NCBI RefSeq assembly: GCF_020405205.1
Contig: NZ_CP084469.1
Span: forward strand, 1,116,001 to 1,180,000
Length of the DNA stretch: 64,000 bases
Reading direction: 5' to 3'
From: Natrinema salinisoli
Lineage (GTDB): Archaea; Halobacteriota; Halobacteria; Halobacteriales; Natrialbaceae
The notes below the pieces were generated by a model that was given only the letters and a program-made list of their open reading frames with translations, had not been told where the DNA came from and made no database searches. This document shows positions 2,822 through 40,642 of this stretch, in pieces. The position numbers and the translations under genes were made by a program. Position 1 is the first letter of the stretch. Each line of letters opens with the position of its first letter.

Positions 2822-3355
2822 ATGTCATCAATCGAACTCACACCGAGCCAGAAGAAAATCCTCCGTGCCCTCACGAACCTTCACAAAGAGACCGAAGACG
2901 CCATCAAAGGGGAGGACATCGCCGAACAGGTCGACCGGAACCCGGGGACGATCCGCAACCAGATGCAGAGTCTCAAAGCCCTCCAGCTCGTCGAAGGTGT
3001 ACCTGGGCCGAAAGGCGGCTACAAGCCCACTGCAACGGCATACGAGGCTCTCGAGATCCAGCAGATGGACGAGCCCGCCGCGGTCCCGATGCAACACGAG
3101 GGCGAACCCATCGACGACATGATCATCGAAGAGATCGATCTCTCGAGCGTTCACCACCCCGAACTCTGCCGCGCGGAGATCCACATTCAGGGCACGCTCA
3201 GCGACATTCACGAAGACGATTCCGTCACCGTCGGCCCGACGCCGCTCTCGAAACTCGTCATCGAGGGGACCGTCGACGGGAAAGACGACACGAACAACAT
3301 CATTATCCTGCGGATCGACGACATGGTCGCGCCCGCCGAGGAACCGGCCCACTGA
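2822..3355 (+). CDS. winged-helix transcriptional regulator
   Basis: The 177-residue protein begins with a winged-helix domain (residues 5-75) containing LTPSQKKILRAL, IKGEDIAEQV, RNPGTIRNQMQSLKAL and EGVPGPKGGYKPT. This N-terminal half closely resembles the HTH part of archaeal HTH-CBS proteins such as the Methanocaldococcus MJ1232 group. The CBS domains are absent here. A short beta-rich C-terminal region (residues 95-170) replaces them, with TPLSKLVIEGTVDG and NNIIILRIDDM. The target genes are unknown. A TTTAAG box at 2792 sits 30 bases before the ATG, so the transcript is probably leaderless and this start is favoured. Confidence 0.75.
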   Translation: MSSIELTPSQKKILRALTNLHKETEDAIKGEDIAEQVDRNPGTIRNQMQSLKALQLVEGVPGPKGGYKPTATAYEALEIQQMDEPAAVPMQHEGEPIDDMIIEEIDLSSVHHPELCRAEIHIQGTLSDIHEDDSVTVGPTPLSKLVIEGTVDGKDDTNNIIILRIDDMVAPAEEPAH

Positions 3356-3463
3356 ACCGCATCCGTCGGCAATCTCTCTCCGTCTTTCTAGCGTCCGCTC
3401 TCGGTCGTCGACCGAATCGGGAAAATCAGTTTCGAGTCGTCGTCTCGAGACGGTAGGGTCCGT

Positions 3464-5953
3464 TCAGTTCGTTTCTACGACTGCGTCGTCGGCGTCCGCG
3501 GTCGCCGCCGCCGGAATGTCGTCGACTGCGGCGACCGCATCGCCGTCCTCGACCTCCATGACGATGACGCCCATCGTGTTCCGACCCACGGTCGAGATCT
3601 CGTCGACCCGGGTCCGGACGATCTGGCCGCGCTCGCTCATCAGGACGAGCTGATCGTCGTCTGCGACCGCTTTGACGGCCGTCACGGAGCCGTTGCGCTC
3701 GCCGGTCTTGATGTCGATCAGCCCCTTTCCGTACCGGGACTGGGTGCGATACTCGGAGAGCAGCGTCCGCTTACCGTAGCCGTTTTCGGTGACCGTCAGC
3801 AGCGCCCGCTCGTCGCCCTCGTCGGTCGCGACCAGGCCCGCCACGGCGTCGTCGTCCTGTAATTTGATGCCGTTGACGCCCCGGGCGTTCCGGCCCATCG
3901 AACGGACTTCGTCCTCGTCGAAGCGGATCGTCATCCCGCCTTCCGTCGCGATGACCAGATCCTGCGTGCCGTCGGTGACTTCGACGTCGACGAGTTCGTC
4001 GCCCTCCTCGAGGTCGGCGGCGATAATACCCGTCGAGAGGATGTTGTCGAACTCCTCGCCGGCGGTGCGTTTGACGTAGCCGTTCCGAGTGGCCATCGTC
4101 ACGAACTCGTCGTCACCGAAGGCGTCGGTGTCGACGATGGCCGTGATGTCCTCGCCGGGATCGAGATCGAGGATGTTGACCGCCGATTTGCCGCGCGCGG
4201 TCCGGCCCATCTCCGGGATCTCGTAGGTCTTGAGCCGGTAGACTTCGCCCTGATTCGTAAAGCAGAGCAGATAATCGTGCGTGTTGGCCCGGAAGACCGT
4301 CGACACGCGGTCGTCCTCCTTGACGTCCGCGCCGATGATCCCTTTGCCACCTCGACCCTGGGGGTCGAAGTTCTCGATCGGCATCCGCTTGACGTAATCG
4401 TCCTCCGTCATGACGACGAAGACTTCCTCCTCGGGGATGAGGTCCTCGTGGGTGACCGTTCCCTGATCTTCGATAATCGAGGTGCGGCGGTCGTCGGCGT
4501 ACTCGTCTCTGATCTCCCGGAGTTCGTCTTTGATGACGGTCAACAGCTCGGACTCGCTCTCGAGAATCGTGGTCAGGCGTTCGATCTCGGCCTGGACCTC
4601 CTCGTACTCGTCCTCGATCTCGGCGGCCTCCATGGAGGTGAGGCTCCCAAGTTGCATCCGGACGATGTGATCCGCCTGATCCGCCGAGAAATCGTAGGCC
4701 TCCTGCAGCGCGTCCTTCGCCGCCGACCGATCCTCGCTGTTGCGGATCAGCTCGACGACGTCTTCGGCGTTCTCGACGGCGGTCAGCCGTCCTTCGAGAA
4801 TGTGGGCCCGGTCCTCGGCCTCCTCGAGGTCGTACTCGCTGCGTCGGCGGACGACCTCGCGGCGGTGGGAGATGTACTCCGCTAAGGTTTCCTTCAGCGA
4901 GAGCACCCGCGGCTGGCCGTCGACCAGCGCGAGGTTGATGACGCCGAAGGTCCGCTCGAGATGGTTCTCGAGCAGTTTGTTCTTGACGACGTCGGCGTTC
5001 GCGCCGCGCTTGAGTTCGATGACGACGCGGACGCCGTCGCGGTCGGACTCGTCGCGCAGGTCGGAGATTCCCTCGATCTCGCCCTCGTTGACGTCCTCTG
5101 CGATACGCTCGACGAGGCGGGCCTTGTTGGCCTGGAAGGGGAGTTCGGTGACGACGATCCGCTCGCGATTCGACTTCCACTCCTCGACTTCGAACTCGGC
5201 GCGGACGCGGATGCGGCCGCGGCCGGTCTTGTACGCCGAGTAGATGGCGTCCCGGCCGACGATGTTCGCGCCCGTCGGGAAGTCTGGCCCCTTGACGTGC
5301 TCCATCAGGTCGTCGACGGTCGCGTCGGGATTATCGATCAGCTCGATCGTCGCGTCGATGACCTCGCCCAGGTTGTGGGGTGGGATGTTCGTCGACATCC
5401 CAACCGCGATCCCCGAGGAGCCGTTCACGAGGAGGTTTGGGAACGCCGCCGGCAGTACGTCGGGCTCTTGCAGACGGTCGTCGTAGTTCGGCGAGAAGTC
5501 GACCGTGTCCTTGTCGATGTCCTCGAGCAACTCCTCGGCGACGGGAGCCATCCGCGCTTCAGTGTACCGGGGCGCGGCGGCCGGGTCACCGTCCATCGAG
5601 CCGAAGTTCCCCTGGCCGTCCACGAGGGGATACCGCATCGAGAAGTCCTGGGCCATCCGGACCAGGGTGTCGTAGATCGCGCTGTCGCCGTGAGGGTGGT
5701 AGTCACCCATCGTCTCCCCGACGATCGAGGAGGACTTGCGGTGACTCGAGCCGCTCGAGACGCCCATCTCGTGCATCGCGTACAGGATGCGTCGGTGGAC
5801 GGGTTTGAGCCCGTCGCGGGCGTCGGGGAGGGCGCGACCGGCGATGACGCTCATCGCGTAGTCGATGTAACTCTGCTCCATCTCGTCTTCGATACGGACG
5901 TTTTCGACTGACCGTGCCTCTACGTCCGTCGGATCGGGTACGTCTGAACTCAT
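3464..5953 (-). CDS. gyrA: DNA gyrase subunit A
   Basis: The 829-residue protein is the DNA-cleaving subunit of gyrase, which introduces negative supercoils. The catalytic tyrosine is Tyr130 in [10 protein letters not shown]. The quinolone-pocket region [10 protein letters not shown] (86-95) carries the usual Ser91. The C-terminal beta-pinwheel includes a GyrA-box variant, QGRGGKG, needed for DNA wrapping, followed by six blade-like repeats ending in an acidic, alanine-rich tail. It lies 18 bases behind gyrB on the same strand, so the two subunits are surely co-transcribed. Length and motifs are normal for haloarchaea. Confidence 0.98.
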
Positions 5954-21286: not shown

Positions 21287-21991
21287 TCACCCATCGAGGA
21301 CGACCGGAACGCCGCGTCTCGCGACGTCGACGACGAACGCGTCCTCGTCGGTTTCGATCGCGTCGAACGTATCGTAGTGGACCGGCAGGACGAGGTCGGG
21401 GTCGATCGCGTCGGCCAGCGACGCGGCCTCGCGGCGATCCATCGTGAACGTGCCGCCGATCGGCGGCAGGAACAGGTCGACGTCCAGCTCCTCGTGAAAC
21501 GGGAACGCGTCGGTATCGCCCGGCCAGAACGCGGTCGTACCGTCGATAGTAACGCCGAACCCACAGCCCCGTCCCTCGGGATGGTAAGGCGTTCCGTGTT
21601 CGTCGGTGTGGGGGCCGTCCGGATCGTTGTACGCCGGCGTCGTGAACAGATCGAGCGGCCCGAGGACGAACGACTCGTCCGCCCGAACGCGCTCGACCTC
21701 GAACGGGAGGCGTTCGGGCCGCTCGTCGACGCCATCGACCTCGGCGGCGTCGATCGACTCGTGAATCACGATCAGCGCGTCCTCGCGGGCGACCCGCCGA
21801 ATCGCGTCCGGGTCGTAGTGGTGATCGTGAGAGACGAGGATCAGATCGCCGTCGCGAGCCTCGTAGTCGTCCAGGAACCCGTACCGTTCCGGGCCGGGGT
21901 CCGTATAGACGACCGCGCCGGTCTGTCCCTCGAGGCGGACGGTCGCGAGGCCGAACCAGTCGACGGTCACCGCGTCGAATCGGACGGTCAT
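21287..21991 (-). CDS. MBL-fold metal-dependent hydrolase (UPF0173-like)
   Basis: The 234-residue metallo-beta-lactamase-fold protein carries SHDHHYDPDAI (about 54-64), the HxHxxxD-type metal-binding motif. WPGDTDAF near residue 155 supplies a further metal-ligand Asp, and LPVHYDTFD near 203 supplies a late His. It belongs to the group of small hydrolases with no fixed substrate. It is the last gene on the minus strand after the ebo-like set (70 bases behind the FAH-family gene), so it may be co-transcribed, but a pathway role is not shown. Confidence 0.8.
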   Translation of the reverse strand: MTVRFDAVTVDWFGLATVRLEGQTGAVVYTDPGPERYGFLDDYEARDGDLILVSHDHHYDPDAIRRVAREDALIVIHESIDAAEVDGVDERPERLPFEVERVRADESFVLGPLDLFTTPAYNDPDGPHTDEHGTPYHPEGRGCGFGVTIDGTTAFWPGDTDAFPFHEELDVDLFLPPIGGTFTMDRREAASLADAIDPDLVLPVHYDTFDAIETDEDAFVVDVARRGVPVVLDG

Positions 21992-22061
21992 TGCCGGGTT
22001 CTTTCTCGAGCAGGCCGAAAAGTGTTCGACTCGTGATCGGCCGGGACTCGTCCGTCTCGAG

Positions 22062-22799
22062 TCAGGGGATCCGGACCGAGTGCTCGAGCGTGCCCACGCC
22101 TTCGACCTCGATTTCGACGTCGTCGCCGTCCTCGAGCGGGCCGACGCCCTCGGGCGTCCCGGTCGCGATCACGTCGCCCGGCTCGAGCGTGAGGTAGGTC
22201 GTGATCTCGGCGATCAGTTCGGGAATCGAGAAGATGAGTTGCTCGCGGGAGCCATCCTGTTTGAGTTCGCCGTTGACGCGCGATCGGACGAACGCGTCGC
22301 CGGGGACTTCGTCGGGGGTCGCGAGGACGGGCCCCATGGGCGCCGCCCCGTCGAACGCTTTGCCGCGGATCCAGTTCTGCTCCTGGCGCTGGTCGTCGCG
22401 GTTCGAAACGTCGTTCACGCAGGTAAAGCCCTGCACGACGTCCATCGCGTCGGCTTCGGAGACGTGGCGACACTGCTCGCCGATGACGACGCCGAGTTCG
22501 GCCTCGTGGTCGATCCGCTCTTTGCCCGCGGGAACGGTCACCGCGTCGCCGTGAGCCGCGAGCGCGTTCGGTGGCTTCAGGAAGAGCATCGGGCGGTCGG
22601 GGAGGTCAGATCCCATCTCGTCGGCGTGATCGGCGTAGTTACGTCCGATACAGACGACCTTCGACGGCTCCGACGGCGGCAACACGTCGATCTCGTCGCT
22701 CGCGAGGTCGTAGCTCTCGTTCGCGAAGTGAACGGTTCCGTTCTCGTACTCGCCGCGGCGGACTGCACCGGCCGGGTCGCGAAAGCGGACGTATTTCAT
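22062..22799 (-). CDS. fumarylacetoacetate hydrolase family protein
   Basis: The 245-residue protein of the FAH superfamily has IGRNYADHADEM, FLKPPNAL, the metal site DHEAELGVVIG (Glu99 and Glu101) and VNDVSNRD. TGTPEGVGPLEDGD closes the domain. Family members include 2-keto-4-pentenoate hydratases, acylpyruvases and oxaloacetate decarboxylases; sequence does not choose between them. It follows the sugar-isomerase-like gene by 78 bases on the same strand and is the fifth gene of a leftward run from 26.4 kb. It could therefore act with the ebo-like set or simply share the transcript. Confidence 0.85.
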   Translation of the reverse strand: MKYVRFRDPAGAVRRGEYENGTVHFANESYDLASDEIDVLPPSEPSKVVCIGRNYADHADEMGSDLPDRPMLFLKPPNALAAHGDAVTVPAGKERIDHEAELGVVIGEQCRHVSEADAMDVVQGFTCVNDVSNRDDQRQEQNWIRGKAFDGAAPMGPVLATPDEVPGDAFVRSRVNGELKQDGSREQLIFSIPELIAEITTYLTLEPGDVIATGTPEGVGPLEDGDDVEIEVEGVGTLEHSVRIP

Positions 22800-22877
22800 G
22801 CTCGGTGGAATGGTCGCAGGGGGTAAAAAGGATTGAGAAGCCGGTCAGTTCGAGGGTTCGGTTCGCGAATCGCCGAG

Positions 22878-23726
22878 CTACGCGTACGCCTCGAGTTCCG
22901 CGTAGGCCTCCCGCGCCGCGCGATCGGGCTCGTCGGGGTAGGTGTAGAGCTCGAGCGTCGCGAAGCCGTCGTAGCCGATATCCTCGAGCGCGTCGAAGAT
23001 CGTTCGGAAGTCCAGATCGCCCTCGCCGGGGATTCGATGGTAGTGTTTCCCGCGGCGGCCGCCGACGATGTCCTCGAGGTGGACGCCGGTGATGGAGCCG
23101 GCGCTGGCGCGGATGCTCTCCGCGACGTCCTCGCCGTAGACGGCCGCGTGGCCGACGTCGAGGTTGACCCCCAGCGAGTCCCGGCCGATCTCGTCGATCA
23201 GGGCGAGTACCTCCTCGGTGTTCTCGATCAGCAACTCGGGCTCGAACTCGATACCGACGTCGACCCCGCGCGGCTCGGCGTAGTCGAGGATCTCGTGGAG
23301 CGATTGGTGGAGGTACTCTCGAGCCTCCTCTGGCACCGTTCCCGGTAGCGGGCGACCACTCGCGAGACAGACCGCCGGTGAGCCGACGGTGGCGGCGAGA
23401 TCGATCGCCCGCTTCGTGTACGCGACGCGCCACTCGCGGGCCTCGTCGTCGGCGCGGATCACGCTCGGCTCGAAGAACGACGACGGCGGCGCGTCGTCGT
23501 AGTAGCCCATCGCCGTATTCGCGTTGATATTCGAGACGGCGAGGTCGGTTTCCTCGAGGGCCTCGCGGACTGTCTCGCGGTCGTCGTCCCCGAATTCGGG
23601 GAAGTAGGCGTGGGGGTCGTCGCCGAGGAGTTCGACTCCGGCGTAGCCGTGGTCGGCGATCCGCCGAACGGCTTCGGGGAGGGAGTGGCGCGTGTACGCG
23701 TTCGTCGAGAAAGCGAGTTCGACCAT
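22878..23726 (-). CDS. eboE: sugar phosphate isomerase/epimerase-like TIM barrel, EboE-like copy 1
   Basis: The 282-residue protein of the AP-endonuclease-2/xylose-isomerase-like TIM-barrel family starts MVELAFSTNAYTRHSL. Probable metal ligands are Glu160 (GIEFEPE), Asp190 and His193 (NLDVGHAAVYG), His216 (GVHLEDI), His228/His230 and Glu259 (ATLELYTYP). The ATG at 23726 is chosen because the ten residues before it (from an ATG at 23756) are basic and unlike the family. EboE of ebo clusters is of this family. It pairs with a paralogue two genes upstream (24809-25639) with which it shares FSTNA, the metal sites and PEPDLL/FEPELL. The reaction is unknown. Confidence 0.75.
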   Translation of the reverse strand: MVELAFSTNAYTRHSLPEAVRRIADHGYAGVELLGDDPHAYFPEFGDDDRETVREALEETDLAVSNINANTAMGYYDDAPPSSFFEPSVIRADDEAREWRVAYTKRAIDLAATVGSPAVCLASGRPLPGTVPEEAREYLHQSLHEILDYAEPRGVDVGIEFEPELLIENTEEVLALIDEIGRDSLGVNLDVGHAAVYGEDVAESIRASAGSITGVHLEDIVGGRRGKHYHRIPGEGDLDFRTIFDALEDIGYDGFATLELYTYPDEPDRAAREAYAELEAYA

Positions 23727-23835
23727 CGATCTGTGCCTCGTACACCGAAGTGCCACTAATTCGTTGGCCCGTCACACTCGCACGATGGTCGAACCGGCGT
23801 ACTGTGAGGGTGTCCGTGCGGTGGCGCGTGGAAAC

Positions 23836-24807
23836 TCACGTCACGTCGAACGCGCGCGACAGTCCCACCGCCGGAACGAGAAAAACGCCAGCCGCGAGTC
23901 CCCAGCGAACGCCGACGGTGGCGGCGAAAGCCGCGTCGAGCAACACGAGCCCGAGGACGCACGCGCCGACCGCCGGCCCGACGGTACTCGGCACCGGATC
24001 GGCGAACGCGGCCCGCAGCGGTCGGCCGACCCACCAGCAGAACGCGGTCGCGAAGGCGAGGGCGACGGCGGCCTCGAGCGCCGTCGGCTCGACGCCCGCG
24101 AGGAACCAGCCGAGGGCGAGCACCGCCGCGACCGCACCCGCGGAAGCGACAGCGACGGCTCGCCGATTCCCGCCCTCGGTCTCCCGCGCGGCCATGAACG
24201 TGACGGCGGCGATGTACGCGGTGACGACCGCGGGCACGGCCAGGAGTCGACGCGGCGACTCGAGGACCGCGGCTCCGGCCACCGTCGTCCCGAGCACGAC
24301 GTTCAGCCCGCGAGCAGTTCCCATCGCGAGGAACCCGACGGCGGATCCCTTCAGGAGGCCGTCGTAGGCGACGATCGCGACGGCGACCAGCCCGGCGGCG
24401 ACGCCAGCCGGGCCGCCCGCGACGGCGAACGCGACCGCGACGGCGGCGAGGAGGAGTGCGAACCCGAGTCCGAACGCCGTGCGTCGGGATACCCGACCGG
24501 ACGGAATCGGCCGCTCGGGTCGCTCTCGAGCGTCGACCGGGGCGTCGAAGGCGTCGTTGAGCGTCGTCCCGCCGGCGTAGAGAAGCACCGACCCGAGCGC
24601 GAGTCCGGCGACTCTCGTCGGCAGCGGCGTCCCACCGGCGAGAGCCACCAGCGCGGCGCCGAGAATCACGTCCGGCGGCGCGGTGAAGAGATTCGGAAGG
24701 CGGACCAGTTCGGCGTACCCGACGAGGATCGCCTGCAGGTCGCTCCGGCCGTCGTCGTCGACTGCGTTCGCCCGCTCGTCGCGATCCGACGACGCGCCGC
24801 CGGCCAC
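23836..24807 (-). CDS. eboC: UbiA-superfamily prenyltransferase, EboC-like
   Basis: The 323-residue protein has a 30-residue acidic head and eight or nine membrane helices. The first Asp-rich motif NDAFDAPVD (Asn84, Asp85, Asp88, Asp92) is intact and followed by RERPERPIPSG, the prenyl-diphosphate binding site. The second Asp motif of ordinary UbiA enzymes (KDIEGD-like) is weak, reading RETEGGNRR. GTARGLNVVLGTT resembles the GLNLLLG stretch that I recall from EboC proteins. It would move a prenyl group to an unknown acceptor in the membrane. Its start follows the end of the next TIM-barrel gene by one base, so both are in one transcript. A second, different UbiA gene lies at 39770. Confidence 0.75.
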   Translation of the reverse strand: MAGGASSDRDERANAVDDDGRSDLQAILVGYAELVRLPNLFTAPPDVILGAALVALAGGTPLPTRVAGLALGSVLLYAGGTTLNDAFDAPVDARERPERPIPSGRVSRRTAFGLGFALLLAAVAVAFAVAGGPAGVAAGLVAVAIVAYDGLLKGSAVGFLAMGTARGLNVVLGTTVAGAAVLESPRRLLAVPAVVTAYIAAVTFMAARETEGGNRRAVAVASAGAVAAVLALGWFLAGVEPTALEAAVALAFATAFCWWVGRPLRAAFADPVPSTVGPAVGACVLGLVLLDAAFAATVGVRWGLAAGVFLVPAVGLSRAFDVT

Positions 24808-24808
24808 C

Positions 24809-25639
24809 CTACGCCCACCCGCGTTCCTCGAGGTAGTCCATCGCCGCCCGCGCGGTCTCGATCGGCGTCTCCTCGTAGGGGTAGAGTTCGACGGTGACGA
24901 AGCCGTCGTAGCCGCGGTTCTCGAGTTCGCCGAGGAAGGCGTCGATATCCATCGCGCCGTCTCCGAGTTGGGTGTGCTCGTGGCTCCGGTCGGCCGGGAT
25001 GTCCTCGAGGTGGTAGTGGCTCGTGTGCTCCCAGAGCGGTTCGACGAGGTCGGCGGGATCCTCGCCGACGCAGTAGAAGTGGCCGGCGTCGAAGTTACAC
25101 CGCACGCGTTCGGAGCCGACCCGATCGAGTAGTGTGAGGAATTCGCCGCCGGTTTCGATCAGCAGGTCGGGCTCGGGTTCGACGAGGAGGTCGACCTCCA
25201 GCTCCTCGGCTCTCGGGACGACTTGCTCGAGGCTGTCGACGAAGGTGTCCGTCGCCCACTCGCGAGACTTGCCGTCGGGGATCGGTCCGCCTGGTTCGAT
25301 CGAGATGTAGGGCAGCTCGAGGTCGGCCGCGGTTTCGAGCGCCGCGAGGGTGTAGTCGATCCGTTTCTGCCGGTATGCTTCGTCGGGCTCGATGTACGAG
25401 GGATGATGGAAGTCCTCGATCGCGGTCAGCATGAACGCGTTGCCGTTGCTGACGGCGATATCGTGTCGCTGTAGGACGTCCGCGACGCGCTTGATTTCCT
25501 CCTCGGTACAGTCGGGCGGGTACAGGTGTGGCTCGTCGAGCAGAATCTCGCCGCCGTCGTATCCCGCGTCGGCGATGGCTTCGATCGCGTCCTCGAGTTG
25601 GTACTCCCGGAAGGCGTTGGTGGAGAAACCGAACTGCAT
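24809..25639 (-). CDS. eboE: sugar phosphate isomerase/epimerase-like TIM barrel, EboE-like copy 2
   Basis: The 276-residue TIM-barrel protein starts MQFGFSTNAF. Metal ligands are Glu154 (LVEPEPDLL), Asp184 and His187 (CNFDAGHFYC), His210 (HYHLEDI), His220/His222 and Glu251 (TVELYPYEE). The protein is homologous to the copy at 22878-23726 but clearly diverged, so the two probably act on different intermediates. It begins four bases after the stop of the TatD-type gene and ends one base before the UbiA-type gene, placing it in the core operon. Confidence 0.75.
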   Translation of the reverse strand: MQFGFSTNAFREYQLEDAIEAIADAGYDGGEILLDEPHLYPPDCTEEEIKRVADVLQRHDIAVSNGNAFMLTAIEDFHHPSYIEPDEAYRQKRIDYTLAALETAADLELPYISIEPGGPIPDGKSREWATDTFVDSLEQVVPRAEELEVDLLVEPEPDLLIETGGEFLTLLDRVGSERVRCNFDAGHFYCVGEDPADLVEPLWEHTSHYHLEDIPADRSHEHTQLGDGAMDIDAFLGELENRGYDGFVTVELYPYEETPIETARAAMDYLEERGWA

Positions 25640-25643
25640 GCGT

Positions 25644-26444
25644 TCAGGCCTCGTAGTCGAAGTTCGGCGACTGGTCGAAGAACTCGTAGGGGTTCTCGAA
25701 GACGACCTTCCGAACCTCCTCGCGGTCCCAGCCCCGATCGAGCATCTCGTCGCGGGCCTTCGGCACCGCGAGCGGGTCCGAGGGATCCCAGTCGGCGGCG
25801 CTGTTGAAGATCATATTGTCGGTGCCGTACTCCTCGAGCAGGTCGATCGCCGACCCGGTCTCGATCTTGCCAGGGTAGAGCGTGAAGCCTATCCAGCAGT
25901 CCGTACGGGTCGAGATATCGATCGTGTTCTCCGTATTGTGATCGATGATGATCCGCTCCTGCGTGACGCCCATCTCTTCGACGATCTCGACGATGCGCTC
26001 GGTGCCCGACGGCTTGTCAGTGTGTGGGGTGTGGATAATGACCGGAAGCTCGCGCTCTTCAGCGATCTCGAGCTGGCGGCGGAACGCCCACTCCTCGTCG
26101 TCGGTGACTTGATCGAAGCCGATCTCGCCGACGCCGACGACGGGGTCGCGCTCGAGGTACTCCGGAATTCGGTCGAGGACGTCTTCGGCCATGTCGCGGT
26201 AGTTGGCTTCCTTCGGCTCGAGGCCGATCGTCACGTAATGGTCCATGTTGGCGGCTCGCTCGGCGCGATCGGTTTCGTGTTCGATGATCTGCTCGAAGTA
26301 GTCGAAGAACGATCCCGCGTTGTGTTTGTCCTGGCCGCTCCAGAACGCCGGCTCGATGCAGCACTCGATACCCGCTCGCCGCGCCCGTCGGTAGTCCTCG
26401 GCCGAGCGCGATACCATGTGCATGTGAGGATCGATAATCCGCAT
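25644..26444 (-). CDS. eboB: TatD-family metal-dependent hydrolase, EboB-like
   Basis: The 266-residue amidohydrolase-fold protein has the metal motifs DPHMHM (His7, His9), VGVGEIGFD (Glu107), IIHTPH (His138), IIDHN (His169) and NSAADWDPSDP (Asp218). The blocks AGIECCIEPAFWSGQ, GSFFDYFE and TIGLEPKEAN are not those of DNA-processing TatD enzymes. They match the EboB subgroup as I know it. EboB proteins are thought to hydrolyse a small molecule in the ebo pathway. It is the first gene of the leftward set, with a perfect hairpin directly before its ATG (26450-26468). Confidence 0.8.
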   Translation of the reverse strand: MRIIDPHMHMVSRSAEDYRRARRAGIECCIEPAFWSGQDKHNAGSFFDYFEQIIEHETDRAERAANMDHYVTIGLEPKEANYRDMAEDVLDRIPEYLERDPVVGVGEIGFDQVTDDEEWAFRRQLEIAEERELPVIIHTPHTDKPSGTERIVEIVEEMGVTQERIIIDHNTENTIDISTRTDCWIGFTLYPGKIETGSAIDLLEEYGTDNMIFNSAADWDPSDPLAVPKARDEMLDRGWDREEVRKVVFENPYEFFDQSPNFDYEA

Positions 26445-26449
26445 ACCCG

Positions 26450-26468
26450 CCGTCCGACGAACGGACGG
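26450..26468. promoter_or_regulatory. inverted repeat before the EboB-like gene
   Basis: A perfect 7-bp inverted repeat (CCGTCCG, five bases, CGGACGG) begins five bases upstream of the ATG at 26444. It could be an operator, or an RNA hairpin close to the start codon of the leftward transcript. It sits in the 291-base divergent region that must hold the promoters of both halves of the ebo-like set. Confidence 0.4.
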
Positions 26469-26735
26469 TTTGGTGCTGTGATCGTTCGCTCGACAAATCC
26501 GGCGTTGATCCCGACGAATCGACTCCTCCTCCGCTGGAATACGGCGTTACGGCCGATCAAAGCCGAATTACTTCCGCTACGGAAGCCATAACGAAACCGG
26601 TTCGGACCTCACGTTCGTGGGAATGATCCCGACCGAACGAGCGATCGGAGTGGACGGGTGGCGCGCGATCGATCCCGGGGGCAGCGGGCGGTCGCAATTC
26701 GATAACTGTTACCCGTCGAGCGGGGAGGATTCGCG

Positions 26736-27950
26736 ATGAGTCAGGGGGCGGATAGACCGGCCGACGAGCGAACTGGGGTCTGGCTCGTCGGTGCCCGCGG
26801 GAACGTCGCGACGATGGCGATCGTCGGTGCCCGCGCGATCGCCGGCGGGAGTACCGGGACGACCGGAATGGTCACGGAACGCGAGCCGGTCTCGAGCCTC
26901 GAGCTCCCGCCGATCGAGGGCCTGGTCTTCGGCGGCCACGACATCGAACCGGAATCGCTCGTCGCGCAGGCCGAACGCCAACGCGATCGGAACGGCGTCC
27001 CTGACGCGGACACGCTCGAGGCAGTCCGGGACGACCTCGCCGAAATCGACGAGCGGATCGAGGTCGGGACGGCGATCAACTGCGGGGCCGCCCTCTCGGC
27101 TGAGAGCGAACAGTTAGACGAGGAGCTGGCGATTCGAGACGTCGTCGAGCAGATTGGTGACGATTACGAGTCGTTCCGCGACCGCCACGACCTCGAGCGG
27201 CTCGTGGTCGTCAACGTCGCCTCGACGGAACCGGAACTGTCCGATCCGACGCGATACGACAGCCACGACGCCCTCGAGCGGGCTATCGACGAGGACGACC
27301 GCGACCTGCCCGCGAGCGTCCTCTACGCCTATGCCGCGATAGCCGGCGGGCATCCGTTCGTCAACTTCACGCCGAGTACGGGCAACGCGCTCGGCGGGGT
27401 CCGCGAGTTCGCGGCCGAAAACGAGGTTCCCCACACGGGACGCGACGCCAAGACCGGCGAGACGCTCGTCAAGTCCGCACTGGCCCCCATGTTCGCCGGA
27501 CGCAACCTCCACGTCATGAGCTGGGAGGGGCACAATATCCTCGGAAACAAGGACGGCCTCGTTCTCGAGGACGAGGCGAACGCCGCGGGCAAGCTGGCGA
27601 CCAAAGGCGACGTGCTCGACTCGATCCTGCCCGACATCGGCCACAACCGGGTCCGGATCGACTATACCCCGTCGCTGGCCGACTGGAAGACGGCCTGGGA
27701 CTACATCCACTTCGAGGGGTTCCTCGAGACGGAGATGAAAATGCAGTTCACCTGGGAGGGCTCCGACTCCGCGCTGGCCGCGCCGCTCGTCCTCGATCTG
27801 GTGCGCCTGATCGCCCACGCCGACGAACACGGACACGGCGGACTCCAGCCCCAGCTCGCGTCGTTCTTCAAAGCGCCGCTCGGCGTCGAAGAGCACGACT
27901 TCTCCCTGCAGCTCAATCGCCTGTACGACTACGCCGAGAGGTACCGCTGA
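26736..27950 (+). CDS. ino1: myo-inositol-1-phosphate synthase family protein
   Basis: The 404-residue protein starts with a Rossmann NAD-binding motif (GVWLVGARGNVATMA). Central blocks are typical of inositol-3-phosphate synthase: NFTPSTGNALGG, DAKTGETLVKSALAPMF, SWEGHNILGNKDG and AAGKLATKGDVL. The family converts glucose-6-phosphate to inositol-3-phosphate in an NAD-dependent oxidation, aldol cyclisation and reduction. In archaea this product feeds phosphoinositide lipids. Here it heads a two-gene rightward unit with the EboF-like phosphatase and lies back to back with the EboB-like operon, at the place where an ebo cluster would have the sugar-phosphate cyclase EboD. The exact substrate in this setting is not known. 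Confidence 0.85.
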   Translation: MSQGADRPADERTGVWLVGARGNVATMAIVGARAIAGGSTGTTGMVTEREPVSSLELPPIEGLVFGGHDIEPESLVAQAERQRDRNGVPDADTLEAVRDDLAEIDERIEVGTAINCGAALSAESEQLDEELAIRDVVEQIGDDYESFRDRHDLERLVVVNVASTEPELSDPTRYDSHDALERAIDEDDRDLPASVLYAYAAIAGGHPFVNFTPSTGNALGGVREFAAENEVPHTGRDAKTGETLVKSALAPMFAGRNLHVMSWEGHNILGNKDGLVLEDEANAAGKLATKGDVLDSILPDIGHNRVRIDYTPSLADWKTAWDYIHFEGFLETEMKMQFTWEGSDSALAAPLVLDLVRLIAHADEHGHGGLQPQLASFFKAPLGVEEHDFSLQLNRLYDYAERYR

Positions 27951-27980
27951 CCGCGACCACCATCTGCCCACAGTGAAACC

Positions 27981-29369
27981 ATGACCGAACCGACGATTCC
28001 CGCCGCGACTGACAGTGCCGGACGCGTGATCGTTCTCGACGTCGTCGGCCTCCAACCGCAGCACGTCGACGCCGATCGAACGCCGACCCTCGAGTCGTTC
28101 TTTCCGGCCGAATCGATGACCGACCTCCGACCGCCCTTCCCCGCCGTGACGGTTCCCGTCCAGACGACGCTCGCGACCGGACGGGGGCCCGGCGAGCACG
28201 GCGACGTCTCGAGCGGCGAGTACGACCGCGAGCGCGACGCCGCGGAGTTCTGGGAGCGTGATCGCGGCGACCGCGATCGGCTTTGGGAGACGGCCAGCGA
28301 CGAGGCCGGACTGACCACCGGCGTATTGAACTTCCAGCACCTGATCGGGACGAGCGCCGACGTCGCGGTCACCCCCTCGCCGATCGAGGACGAGAACAAC
28401 GACATCCTCGAGATGAACTGCTGGACGAACCCGGACGGCTTCTACGACGATCTCCGGGCGGAGCTGGGGCACTTCCCGCTGCACAACTACTGGGGTCCCG
28501 GCGCGAACGAAGCGGGGAGTCGGTGGATCCTGTCGGCCGCCCGCGAGGCGATCGATCGGTTCGATACCGATCTCCTCTGGGTCTACGTCCCCCACCTGGA
28601 CTACGTCGGCCAGAGCGACGGCCCCGGAAGCGACGCCTTCGCGGAGGAAACCGAAGTCGTCGACGGCCTCCTCGATGAGTTCCTCGAGTTCCTCTCCGAA
28701 ACCGACCGTTGGGACGAGACCGTCCTCGCGCTCGTCAGCGAGTACGGCTTTCACGGCGTGGATCAGCCGGTGTTCCCCAACCGCGCCCTCCGCGACGCCG
28801 GCCTGCTCGAGACGGCCGGCGATGGCGACGTCGACCTCGCCGCCTCGGGCGCGTTCGCCATGGTCGACCACCAGATCGCACACGTCTACGTCGACGAGGG
28901 GGCGATCGAGGCCGCTCGCGACGCACTTGAGGAGCTCGAGGGGATCGATTCCGTGCTCGAGGAGGCGAGCAAGGCCGAGCGCGGGATCGATCACCCGAAC
29001 GCCGGCGAGTTCGTCCTCGTCGCAGCGCCGAACGCCTGGTTCCAGTACTACTGGTGGGACGACCGCGCGAACGCACCGCCGTACGCGACCGAGATGGACA
29101 TTCACGCGAAGCCCGGCTTCGACCCCTGCGAGCTGTTCTTCGGCGACGACGGACTCGTCTCGCTGGACGCGTCGAAAGTGAGCGGGTCCCACGGCCGCGT
29201 CGACGAGTCCGCCTACGGGTGTTTCGGACTCGGGGGGCCGGCAGCACCCGCGCTCGAGGGGAACGATCCGGTCGACGCGATCGACGTGGCCCCGACGATC
29301 GCGGATCTGCTCGCGCTCGAGGGGGAGTTATCGATGCCGTTCGAGGGCTCGTCGCTTCGGCGCGGGTAG
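27981..29369 (+). CDS. eboF: alkaline-phosphatase-superfamily enzyme, EboF-like
   Basis: The 462-residue protein is of the nucleotide pyrophosphatase/phosphodiesterase type. Metal and nucleophile positions are visible: VIVLDVVGL (Asp20), FPAVTVPVQTTLATG with the likely nucleophile Thr57, GEHGDV (His73), VYVPHLDYVGQ (Asp207) and SEYGFH (253-258), with a late SGSHGR. The block GHFPLHNYWGP (163-173) followed by RWI is close to the FPLF-FWGP segment known to me from EboF proteins. It starts 30 bases after the inositol-phosphate synthase gene and would dephosphorylate or cleave a phosphodiester in the pathway product. No signal peptide is seen, so it should act in the cytoplasm. Confidence 0.75.
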   Translation: MTEPTIPAATDSAGRVIVLDVVGLQPQHVDADRTPTLESFFPAESMTDLRPPFPAVTVPVQTTLATGRGPGEHGDVSSGEYDRERDAAEFWERDRGDRDRLWETASDEAGLTTGVLNFQHLIGTSADVAVTPSPIEDENNDILEMNCWTNPDGFYDDLRAELGHFPLHNYWGPGANEAGSRWILSAAREAIDRFDTDLLWVYVPHLDYVGQSDGPGSDAFAEETEVVDGLLDEFLEFLSETDRWDETVLALVSEYGFHGVDQPVFPNRALRDAGLLETAGDGDVDLAASGAFAMVDHQIAHVYVDEGAIEAARDALEELEGIDSVLEEASKAERGIDHPNAGEFVLVAAPNAWFQYYWWDDRANAPPYATEMDIHAKPGFDPCELFFGDDGLVSLDASKVSGSHGRVDESAYGCFGLGGPAAPALEGNDPVDAIDVAPTIADLLALEGELSMPFEGSSLRRG

Positions 29370-29554: not shown

Positions 29555-29629
29555 GCTCCGTTGGTGTAGTCCGGCCAATCATTTCGGCCTTTCGAGCCGA
29601 TGACCTGGGTTCAAATCCCAGACGGAGCA
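29555..29629 (+). tRNA. tRNA-Glu (anticodon TTC)
   Basis: A full cloverleaf can be drawn. The acceptor stem is GCTCCGT paired with ACGGAGC. The anticodon stem TCGGC/GCCGA carries loop CTTTCGA with anticodon TTC at 29591-29593. The T stem CTGGG/CCCAG carries loop TTCAAAT, and the discriminator is A at 29629. No intron is present and the CCA tail is not encoded (CAC follows). The D arm has the three-pair form usual for archaeal tRNA-Glu. Confidence 0.93.
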
Positions 29630-29980
29630 CTCTTCTGAGGAACGAAATGGGAAAGAGGAAGCGTACGCTCTGGGATTTGAATGAGAGAAACGAGCCCAGG
29701 GGCGTATCGCGTGATTCCGGTCCCGAAGTGGCCGTCCGTGCGATTCCCGTTCAGCGACGATATCGTCGCTTTCGAGACGGCGAACGAATTGTCGGTCGTA
29801 AATCGGCCGTCGTCCGTGGTATGTGCAACCTTCGTACACGAAGAGCTGGACGAGCTCGCAATCCGATCCGATTACGCCTATCCACGACTTAACCGCATCC
29901 ATCACTACACCGACTCACTGGAATCGGATAGAACTGTATATTCGTAAACCCCTAATATGAGGAGAGCTTCATAACACACA
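29630..29980. other. intergenic region after tRNA-Glu
   Basis: About 350 bases with no clear gene. A 13-base inverted copy of the tRNA T-arm (TCTGGGATTTGAA, 29669-29681) lies 40 bases after the tRNA. An open frame of 88 codons at 29681-29947 (+) begins MRETSPGAYRV. It has no recognisable family and a mixed codon pattern, and could be a small gene or a remnant. The end of the region carries the promoter of the Lrp gene (GTATATTC near 29937). Confidence 0.5.
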
Positions 29981-39769: not shown

Positions 39770-40642
39770 TCACCAGATCGCCCACTCAAGAGCCACTACG
39801 ACGGCGGCGAGGAACACGTGTTCGCCGTCGACGACGAACCCGTAGTACAGCGGGCCGCGATCGGGGGTTGCGAAGGGGATGTAGGCGGCGACGTAGGCGT
39901 TCATCGCGAGCACGACGAGGAACCGGCGCGGTATCGCCCCGCTGCCGACGAGGGCGATGACCCCCGCAGCGACGGCGACGGTCGCCAGCAGCGACGGGAT
40001 GCGGGTCCATCGCGGCCCGAACAGGTTGGGCACCGTGGGGATCCCCGCCGCGCGGTCGCCCTCGATGTCTTTGACGTCGAAGACCACCGCGGCGATGGTG
40101 AGCATGACCGTGACGTACGCGAAGAGAAACAGGATCTCCGGCGAGCGCAGCTGGCCGTAGTAGTAGCCGACGCCGAGGGGAATCGCGCCCCAGGCGAAGC
40201 CGACGACGAGATTCTTCACGAGGAAGACTCGCTTGACTCCGCCGACGGAGTAGAGGAACACGACCGCGAGCGGGAGGAGCATGTACACCGCACCGGAGAC
40301 GTCGAGCGCGACCGCTGTCGCGACCGCAACGACGTAGAGCCCGACGCCGACCGCCAGCCAGAGTCGGCCGTACCGCTTCGTAAACGCCGCGCGCTGGGGG
40401 ACGTTTTGCTCGTCTTCCTCGAGGTCGGTGAACCGGTTGACGGTGTAAACGAACATCGTCGCCGCGAAGACGATGAAGAGGGGGAGGGGATCGAGCGGGA
40501 GGTTCGCGAGGAGGGCGGTCGTGAGGGCGACGCTGACGGTCGCCAGCGAAATGAAGAGGTTGCTGTGAACCAGAAACCGAAGGCCGGCCTTGAGGGATGA
40601 TACCCAACTCGGCGTTCGGTGCGTTGCGGTGGGGGTTCTCAC
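39770..40642 (-). CDS. UbiA-family prenyltransferase
   Basis: The 290-residue membrane protein has eight or nine helices. The first Asp-rich motif region reads NRFTDLEEDEQN and the second is DVKDIEGDRAAG, which is well kept. It transfers a prenyl chain to an aromatic, glycerol or carotenoid acceptor, but the subclass is not clear. It differs from the EboC-like gene at 23836, which lacks a good second motif. The upstream region holds the GTTCC/GGAAC array at 40740-40793. Confidence 0.82.
   Translation of the reverse strand: MRTPTATHRTPSWVSSLKAGLRFLVHSNLFISLATVSVALTTALLANLPLDPLPLFIVFAATMFVYTVNRFTDLEEDEQNVPQRAAFTKRYGRLWLAVGVGLYVVAVATAVALDVSGAVYMLLPLAVVFLYSVGGVKRVFLVKNLVVGFAWGAIPLGVGYYYGQLRSPEILFLFAYVTVMLTIAAVVFDVKDIEGDRAAGIPTVPNLFGPRWTRIPSLLATVAVAAGVIALVGSGAIPRRFLVVLAMNAYVAAYIPFATPDRGPLYYGFVVDGEHVFLAAVVVALEWAIW

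Follow-up and report, generated by a model that had tools for sequence, protein, structure and literature searches.

The haloarchaeal genome from which the DNA comes measures 4.70 Mb, and the window analysed here covers 64,000 nucleotides of its main contig (bases 1116001-1180000). The open reading frames near the finding were classified with NCBIfam and Pfam. The ORF listing and the family searches gave a module of six genes at positions 22878-29369 of the window, four on the minus strand and two on the plus strand. Read in the order of transcription, the minus half consists of EboB (25644-26444), a metal-dependent hydrolase that is related to TatD and belongs to the EboB family, TIM1 (24809-25639), a short xylose-isomerase-like TIM barrel (PF01261), an EboC-type UbiA prenyltransferase (23836-24807) with the motifs NDxxDxxxD (NDAFDAPVD) and GLNVVLG, and TIM2 (22878-23726), another short xylose-isomerase-like barrel (PF01261) with a ketose-3-epimerase/IolI-like fold, of which a remnant is found in genome G012. 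The plus half begins with MIPS (26736-27950; PF07994/PF01658) and continues with EboF (27981-29369), an NPP-like protein of the alkaline phosphatase superfamily (PF01663 lineage) that carries the block FPLHNYWGP. All the TatD-type, UbiA, TIM-barrel and AP-superfamily genes that an earlier note on this DNA had listed were found with their motifs, and its spacings of 4 bases between the TatD-type gene and TIM1 and 1 base between TIM1 and the UbiA gene agree with the ORF coordinates; MIPS, at the start of the plus half, was absent from that list and is the most informative gene of the module. The intergenic region common to the divergent halves (26445-26735) contains a non-coding block (26546-26597) between EboB and MIPS that is kept in an alignment of 13 genomes of the genus, and this block may perhaps hold promoter or regulator sites serving both halves.

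Two further genes on the minus strand, a FAH-hydrolase gene located 3' of TIM2 (22062-22799) and an MBL-fold gene located 3' of FAH (21287-21991), had previously been counted as cluster members (21287-22799), and a tRNA-Glu(TTC) gene on the plus strand (29555-29630) forms the right edge of the block. In 12 inspected congeners without the module the order topoisomerase VI subunit A, MBL, FAH, tRNA-Glu is intact (with AsnC next in nine of them, within the stretch taken) and the six genes are absent between FAH and tRNA-Glu. Given that these relatives have lost the six genes as one block and that MBL and FAH persist where the module is absent, the membership of both was rejected and they are regarded as flanking genes only. 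One of the module-less congeners had a TIM2 fragment adjoining an EboF fragment and another had the end of EboF only (about 3286-3719 of locus L272 and 3333-3722 of locus L277), from which it follows that the module was once present and was then deleted in at least these two congeners. Together with the absence of the whole block, the remnants set the limits of the module at TIM2 and EboF. A recent insertion beside tRNA-Glu, considered as an explanation of why the module is distributed so patchily in the genus, was not supported, since the remnants in the two congeners indicate loss.

The kinship of the proteins with bacterial Ebo proteins was examined with trees, profiles and alignments. The EboB clade was separated with 100/100 support from other TatD-type proteins, including methanogen TatD relatives, and the haloarchaeal sequences formed a single clade (91/95) within the EboB family. 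In the archaeal survey, which covered Halobacteriota, the EboB profile scored 425-440 bits in cluster-bearing haloarchaea (440 for the window protein) and at most 173 bits elsewhere among 197 Halobacteriota. For the UbiA protein the best NCBIfam model was EboC with 201.7 bits, under the cut-off of 250, followed by the SCO3242 family with 173.5 bits (cut-off 260). All 49 cluster UbiA proteins, including bacterial EboC and SCO3242, fell on one side of the tree (96/87) versus 11 haloarchaeal UbiA paralogues, seven of them further UbiA proteins from the genome under study and four from its relatives, with several long branches in the tree. A further UbiA-family gene (39881-40534, minus strand; PF01040, 82.7 bits) is present in the window and is one of nine in the genome. 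When 72,556 plasmid records were searched by tblastn with the TatD-type protein and with EboF, 52 records were obtained with each query, and each record that was opened showed a complete or partial ebo cluster.

The EboF tree was drawn with EboF proteins only, and in the alignment the haloarchaeal EboF has the invariants SEY, DHQ, KPG/KxG and SHG in common with the bacterial EboF proteins. The predicted fold of EboF is NPP-like (model pLDDT 81; structure search), and the segments IDGL, HVDEAGH and SDHG of the Xanthomonas NPP correspond to VVGL, HLDYVGQ and SEYG in EboF. The residues replaced are those we take to be zinc ligands in NPP, and the Gln, Glu and Tyr found at these positions are invariant in 22 EboF proteins. 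With several canonical metal ligands of NPP replaced, the alignment makes it unlikely that EboF is a standard two-zinc phosphodiesterase.

The core of the earlier claim, that of an archaeal ebo-like cluster, thus holds: EboB and UbiA group with bacterial Ebo proteins away from other TatD and UbiA enzymes, the AP enzyme has the invariant residues of EboF, and the linkage is conserved in other haloarchaea. The arrangement is far beyond chance. That the TatD, UbiA, isomerase and phosphatase genes are unrelated and only happen to be neighbours would agree with the fact that general Pfam families fit every protein and that UbiA stays under the EboC cut-off of NCBIfam, but this is contradicted by the trees, the gap in profile scores, the identical genome distribution of EboB and EboC and the loss as one block; refuted by conserved linkage and phylogeny, it retains hardly any probability.

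The two TIM barrels had been assigned to EboE, which would have brought the number of Ebo classes to four of six. With 25 and 21 bits for the barrels in the window against the NCBIfam EboE cut-off of 250, and with a 100/100 split in the tree between EboE on one side and TIM1, TIM2 and the short TIM of Actinobacteria on the other, this identity was rejected, so that three classes (B, C and F) and not four are present. Common descent of the short TIM barrels is not proven, because three unrelated TIM proteins were placed beside the actinobacterial short-TIM group in the tree. The model of TIM2 (pLDDT 84) resembled ketose 3-epimerases, UlaE and IolI in a structure search, and in the alignment TIM1 and TIM2 both have Glu, Asp, His and Glu at conserved positions; presumably these are positions of the metal-binding kind found in ketose 3-epimerase-type enzymes.

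As to the other Ebo proteins, EboD (sugar phosphate cyclase, PF01761) was found in none of the haloarchaeal cluster loci, and a search of 30 haloarchaeal genomes that have the cluster gave no clear match, only three marginal ones of 20-25 bits, all unlinked, so that an EboD encoded elsewhere in the genome was rejected for these 30 genomes. For the long TIM barrel EboE, the best score in the 30 genomes was 31 bits (cut-off 250), mostly from TIM1 and TIM2 themselves. A profile made from nine EboA seeds gave no match at E<=1e-5 in the haloarchaeal loci, although a strongly diverged EboA could escape this profile because the family is fast-evolving.

The distribution of the module was determined in 391 haloarchaeal genomes that had been drawn evenly. 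An EboC-like UbiA was present in 55 of these and EboB in exactly the same 55, and MIPS was present in 53, of which 50 also had EboC (Fisher's exact test, p=1.5e-53, uncorrected for relatedness). In 45 of the 50 genomes with both, MIPS was located no more than about 4 kb from EboC, and among 24 congeners searched with both proteins, MIPS and UbiA occurred in the same 10. Five genomes had EboC only, two of them with MIPS fragments and three with no MIPS. The other five module genes were present in G320, G343 and G387 with no MIPS in the assembly, and the only MIPS of G346 belonged to a subclade unlinked to ebo; given that these four genomes are without a module-type MIPS, either MIPS is not strictly required or inositol is obtained from elsewhere. 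The six genes remain neighbours in 12 congeners as well as in several further families of haloarchaea. The module was also found on plasmids of Natronococcus, Halobaculum and Halocatena; on a Haladaptatus plasmid all module genes except MIPS were nearby. These results extend ebo to the archaea, with repeated loss of the block, and among the open-access papers searched, none was found that describes an ebo cluster from archaea or one of the MIPS type.

Among solved structures, A. fulgidus MIPS (1u1i) was the closest to the module MIPS, at 278 bits, and the alignment shows that the cluster MIPS has kept the two lysines that were mutated in 3qvw and 3qvx. In the tree the haloarchaeal MIPS and that of the actinobacterial ebo clusters were sister groups (99/96). 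Other archaeal and bacterial MIPS fell outside this pair, the other bacteria being represented by four sequences. Most haloarchaeal MIPS unlinked to ebo formed a small subclade of their own, the sole MIPS of genome G200 was of a different type, and the three genomes with MIPS and no EboC had a MIPS either of the unlinked subclade or of that other type. On a Halomarina plasmid (L259, 8001-10466) a MIPS of the unlinked subclade is followed by a GT4 glycosyltransferase, which possibly represents a separate use of inositol, judging from the gene neighbourhood. On Roseomonas and Hymenobacter plasmids (L261, 4977-11152; L262, 4932-11101) MIPS is part of a different cluster with a Gfo/Idh oxidoreductase, a YcaO-like protein and others.

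These MIPS data bear on the idea that the enzyme serves an ordinary inositol polar lipid of the archaetidylinositol type and that the ebo-like module stands beside it by loose association. Polar lipids with a head group derived from myo-inositol are reported for haloarchaea in a review on Haloferax volcanii, in which HVO_B0213 is 43% identical to AF_1794, the MIPS of A. fulgidus (PMC8305020), and both points favour the idea, as does the existence of a MIPS unlinked to ebo beside GT4 glycosyltransferases in Halomarina. Searched as a control, the H. volcanii genome matched the profiles of EboC, MIPS and EboE. However, a general use of MIPS for inositol lipids would not be expected to restrict the enzyme to about one in seven haloarchaea, nor to link it with EboC (53/391 genomes, 50 with EboC, adjoining it in 45), the sister MIPS is found in the same module of actinobacterial ebo clusters, and most unlinked MIPS belong to a separate small subclade. 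We therefore consider the ordinary-lipid explanation unlikely.

Among 42 bacterial loci with EboB and UbiA, 30 had EboD, seven had MIPS and none had both (p=2.9e-5), and in the same loci a short TIM was present in 7/7 with MIPS versus 1/35 without (p=3e-7). Since Actinobacteria contribute six of the seven MIPS clusters (the seventh is from Gemmatirosa, Gemmatimonadota), these p-values overstate independence and the mutual exclusion of EboD and MIPS rests on few independent events. The actinobacterial clusters and the one from Gemmatimonadota have MIPS and a short TIM barrel and are without EboD; other bacterial phyla were sampled through plasmids and one genome-contig scan, mostly of Planctomycetes and Verrucomicrobia. 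The Gemmatirosa kalamazoonensis cluster is carried on a plasmid (L087, 6355-13420) with EboE, EboB, EboF, UbiA, MIPS and a short TIM. A Pirellulales MAG (L140, 11106-15130) showed another variant, with EboF, a short TIM, UbiA and a TIM1-like barrel and neither MIPS nor EboD in reach, and a Salipiger EboD-type protein (L081, 1825-3726) of about 630 aa was extended at the N-terminus by about 240 aa.

Gene content, kinship, co-inheritance and the conserved MIPS residues are established at the level of sequence, and it is well supported that MIPS stands in place of the cyclitol synthase EboD. It has been proposed that ebo clusters make an isoprenoid-cyclitol by means of a cyclitol synthase, EboD, and a prenyltransferase, EboC (Yurchenko et al., PMC5133447). 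That EboD alternates with MIPS and a short TIM fits this idea, because both unrelated enzymes make a carbocyclic polyol from a sugar phosphate, and two unrelated ring-forming synthases alternating in one module argue for a cyclitol as the common building block. We therefore lean towards the interpretation that the module is a haloarchaeal variant of ebo that builds a prenylated cyclitol. In this pathway MIPS would convert glucose-6-phosphate to inositol-1-phosphate, filling the role of the sugar-phosphate cyclase EboD, TIM1 and/or TIM2 might isomerise or epimerise the cyclitol unit, and EboC would join a prenyl chain to it in the membrane, which in a haloarchaeon is probably geranylgeranyl. 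EboB and EboF may act on a phosphorylated or prenylated intermediate. The expected product would be an inositol-derived, prenylated compound of the membrane, probably lipid-anchored, and such an isoprenoid-cyclitol could function as a carrier lipid that takes small molecules across the membrane, or else have a protective role. What the enzymes downstream of MIPS use as substrates, which prenyl chain is attached and what the product is for are predictions.

Several points count against a prenylated cyclitol. We know of no product for any ebo cluster, and a flavobacterial EboC farnesylates quinolines in vitro (PMC9235831). The haloarchaeal genomes without a module-type MIPS, the uncertain chemistry of EboF and the small number of independent events behind the exclusion of EboD and MIPS also weigh against it. 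The module could also be a transport or assembly system for metabolite traffic, whose proteins form a membrane complex and in which the cyclitol is accessory. The Nostoc ebo genes are needed to move the scytonemin monomer out of the cytoplasm, and every ebo deletion blocks scytonemin maturation with the monomer kept in the cytoplasm and no gene-specific intermediates (Klicki et al., PMC6282210), which favours this explanation. Yet MIPS, TIM1 and TIM2, half of the six haloarchaeal genes, look like enzymes of sugar or cyclitol metabolism and retain conserved residues of the active site, and EboA was found in none of the haloarchaeal loci searched by profile. In addition, haloarchaea have no outer membrane and periplasm of the Nostoc kind, and altogether a transport system seems quite improbable.

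The prenylated cyclitol can be carried further, more tentatively. It is conceivable, if short of probable, that haloarchaea and Streptomyces-type bacteria make an undescribed prenyl-inositol lipid and that the general ebo product is a prenylated cyclitol carrier with its ring supplied by either EboD or MIPS. For clusters with MIPS it can be predicted which ring the pathway starts from, namely inositol phosphate, and most of the cluster-bearing haloarchaea searched are without a second MIPS.

Compared with known systems, the haloarchaeal MIPS is of the same enzyme family as that of Archaeoglobus fulgidus (1u1i), with the catalytic lysines kept, and differs in being located in an ebo module. EboF shares the fold of nucleotide pyrophosphatase/phosphodiesterases (Xac NPP, ENPP6), whereas several metal-ligand positions differ, and TIM2 has the fold of ketose 3-epimerase/UlaE/IolI barrels and matches them in sequence, although the identity is only about 20%. 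At the level of the cluster, the canonical eboABCDEF operon of Bacteroidota, Cyanobacteria and eustigmatophyte plastids (PMC5133447) has the EboB, EboC and EboF families and the compactness in common with the haloarchaeal version, which is without EboA, EboD and EboE and has MIPS and short TIM barrels instead. The Streptomyces ebo/SCO3242-type cluster has the gene order MIPS-UbiA-short TIM-EboA-EboB-EboE-EboF, and a transcriptome study (PMC3610822) lists SCO3242 and SCO3243 together with the S. coelicolor cluster for the antibiotic CDA. Of the traits of this MIPS-type subgroup, the haloarchaeal module has MIPS and short TIM for EboD and is without EboA and the long EboE; it differs further in having two short TIM barrels and in the divergent orientation of MIPS-EboF from the rest. 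The actinobacterial and haloarchaeal clusters nevertheless have in common MIPS for EboD, a short TIM, UbiA, EboB and EboF, and their MIPS proteins are sisters.
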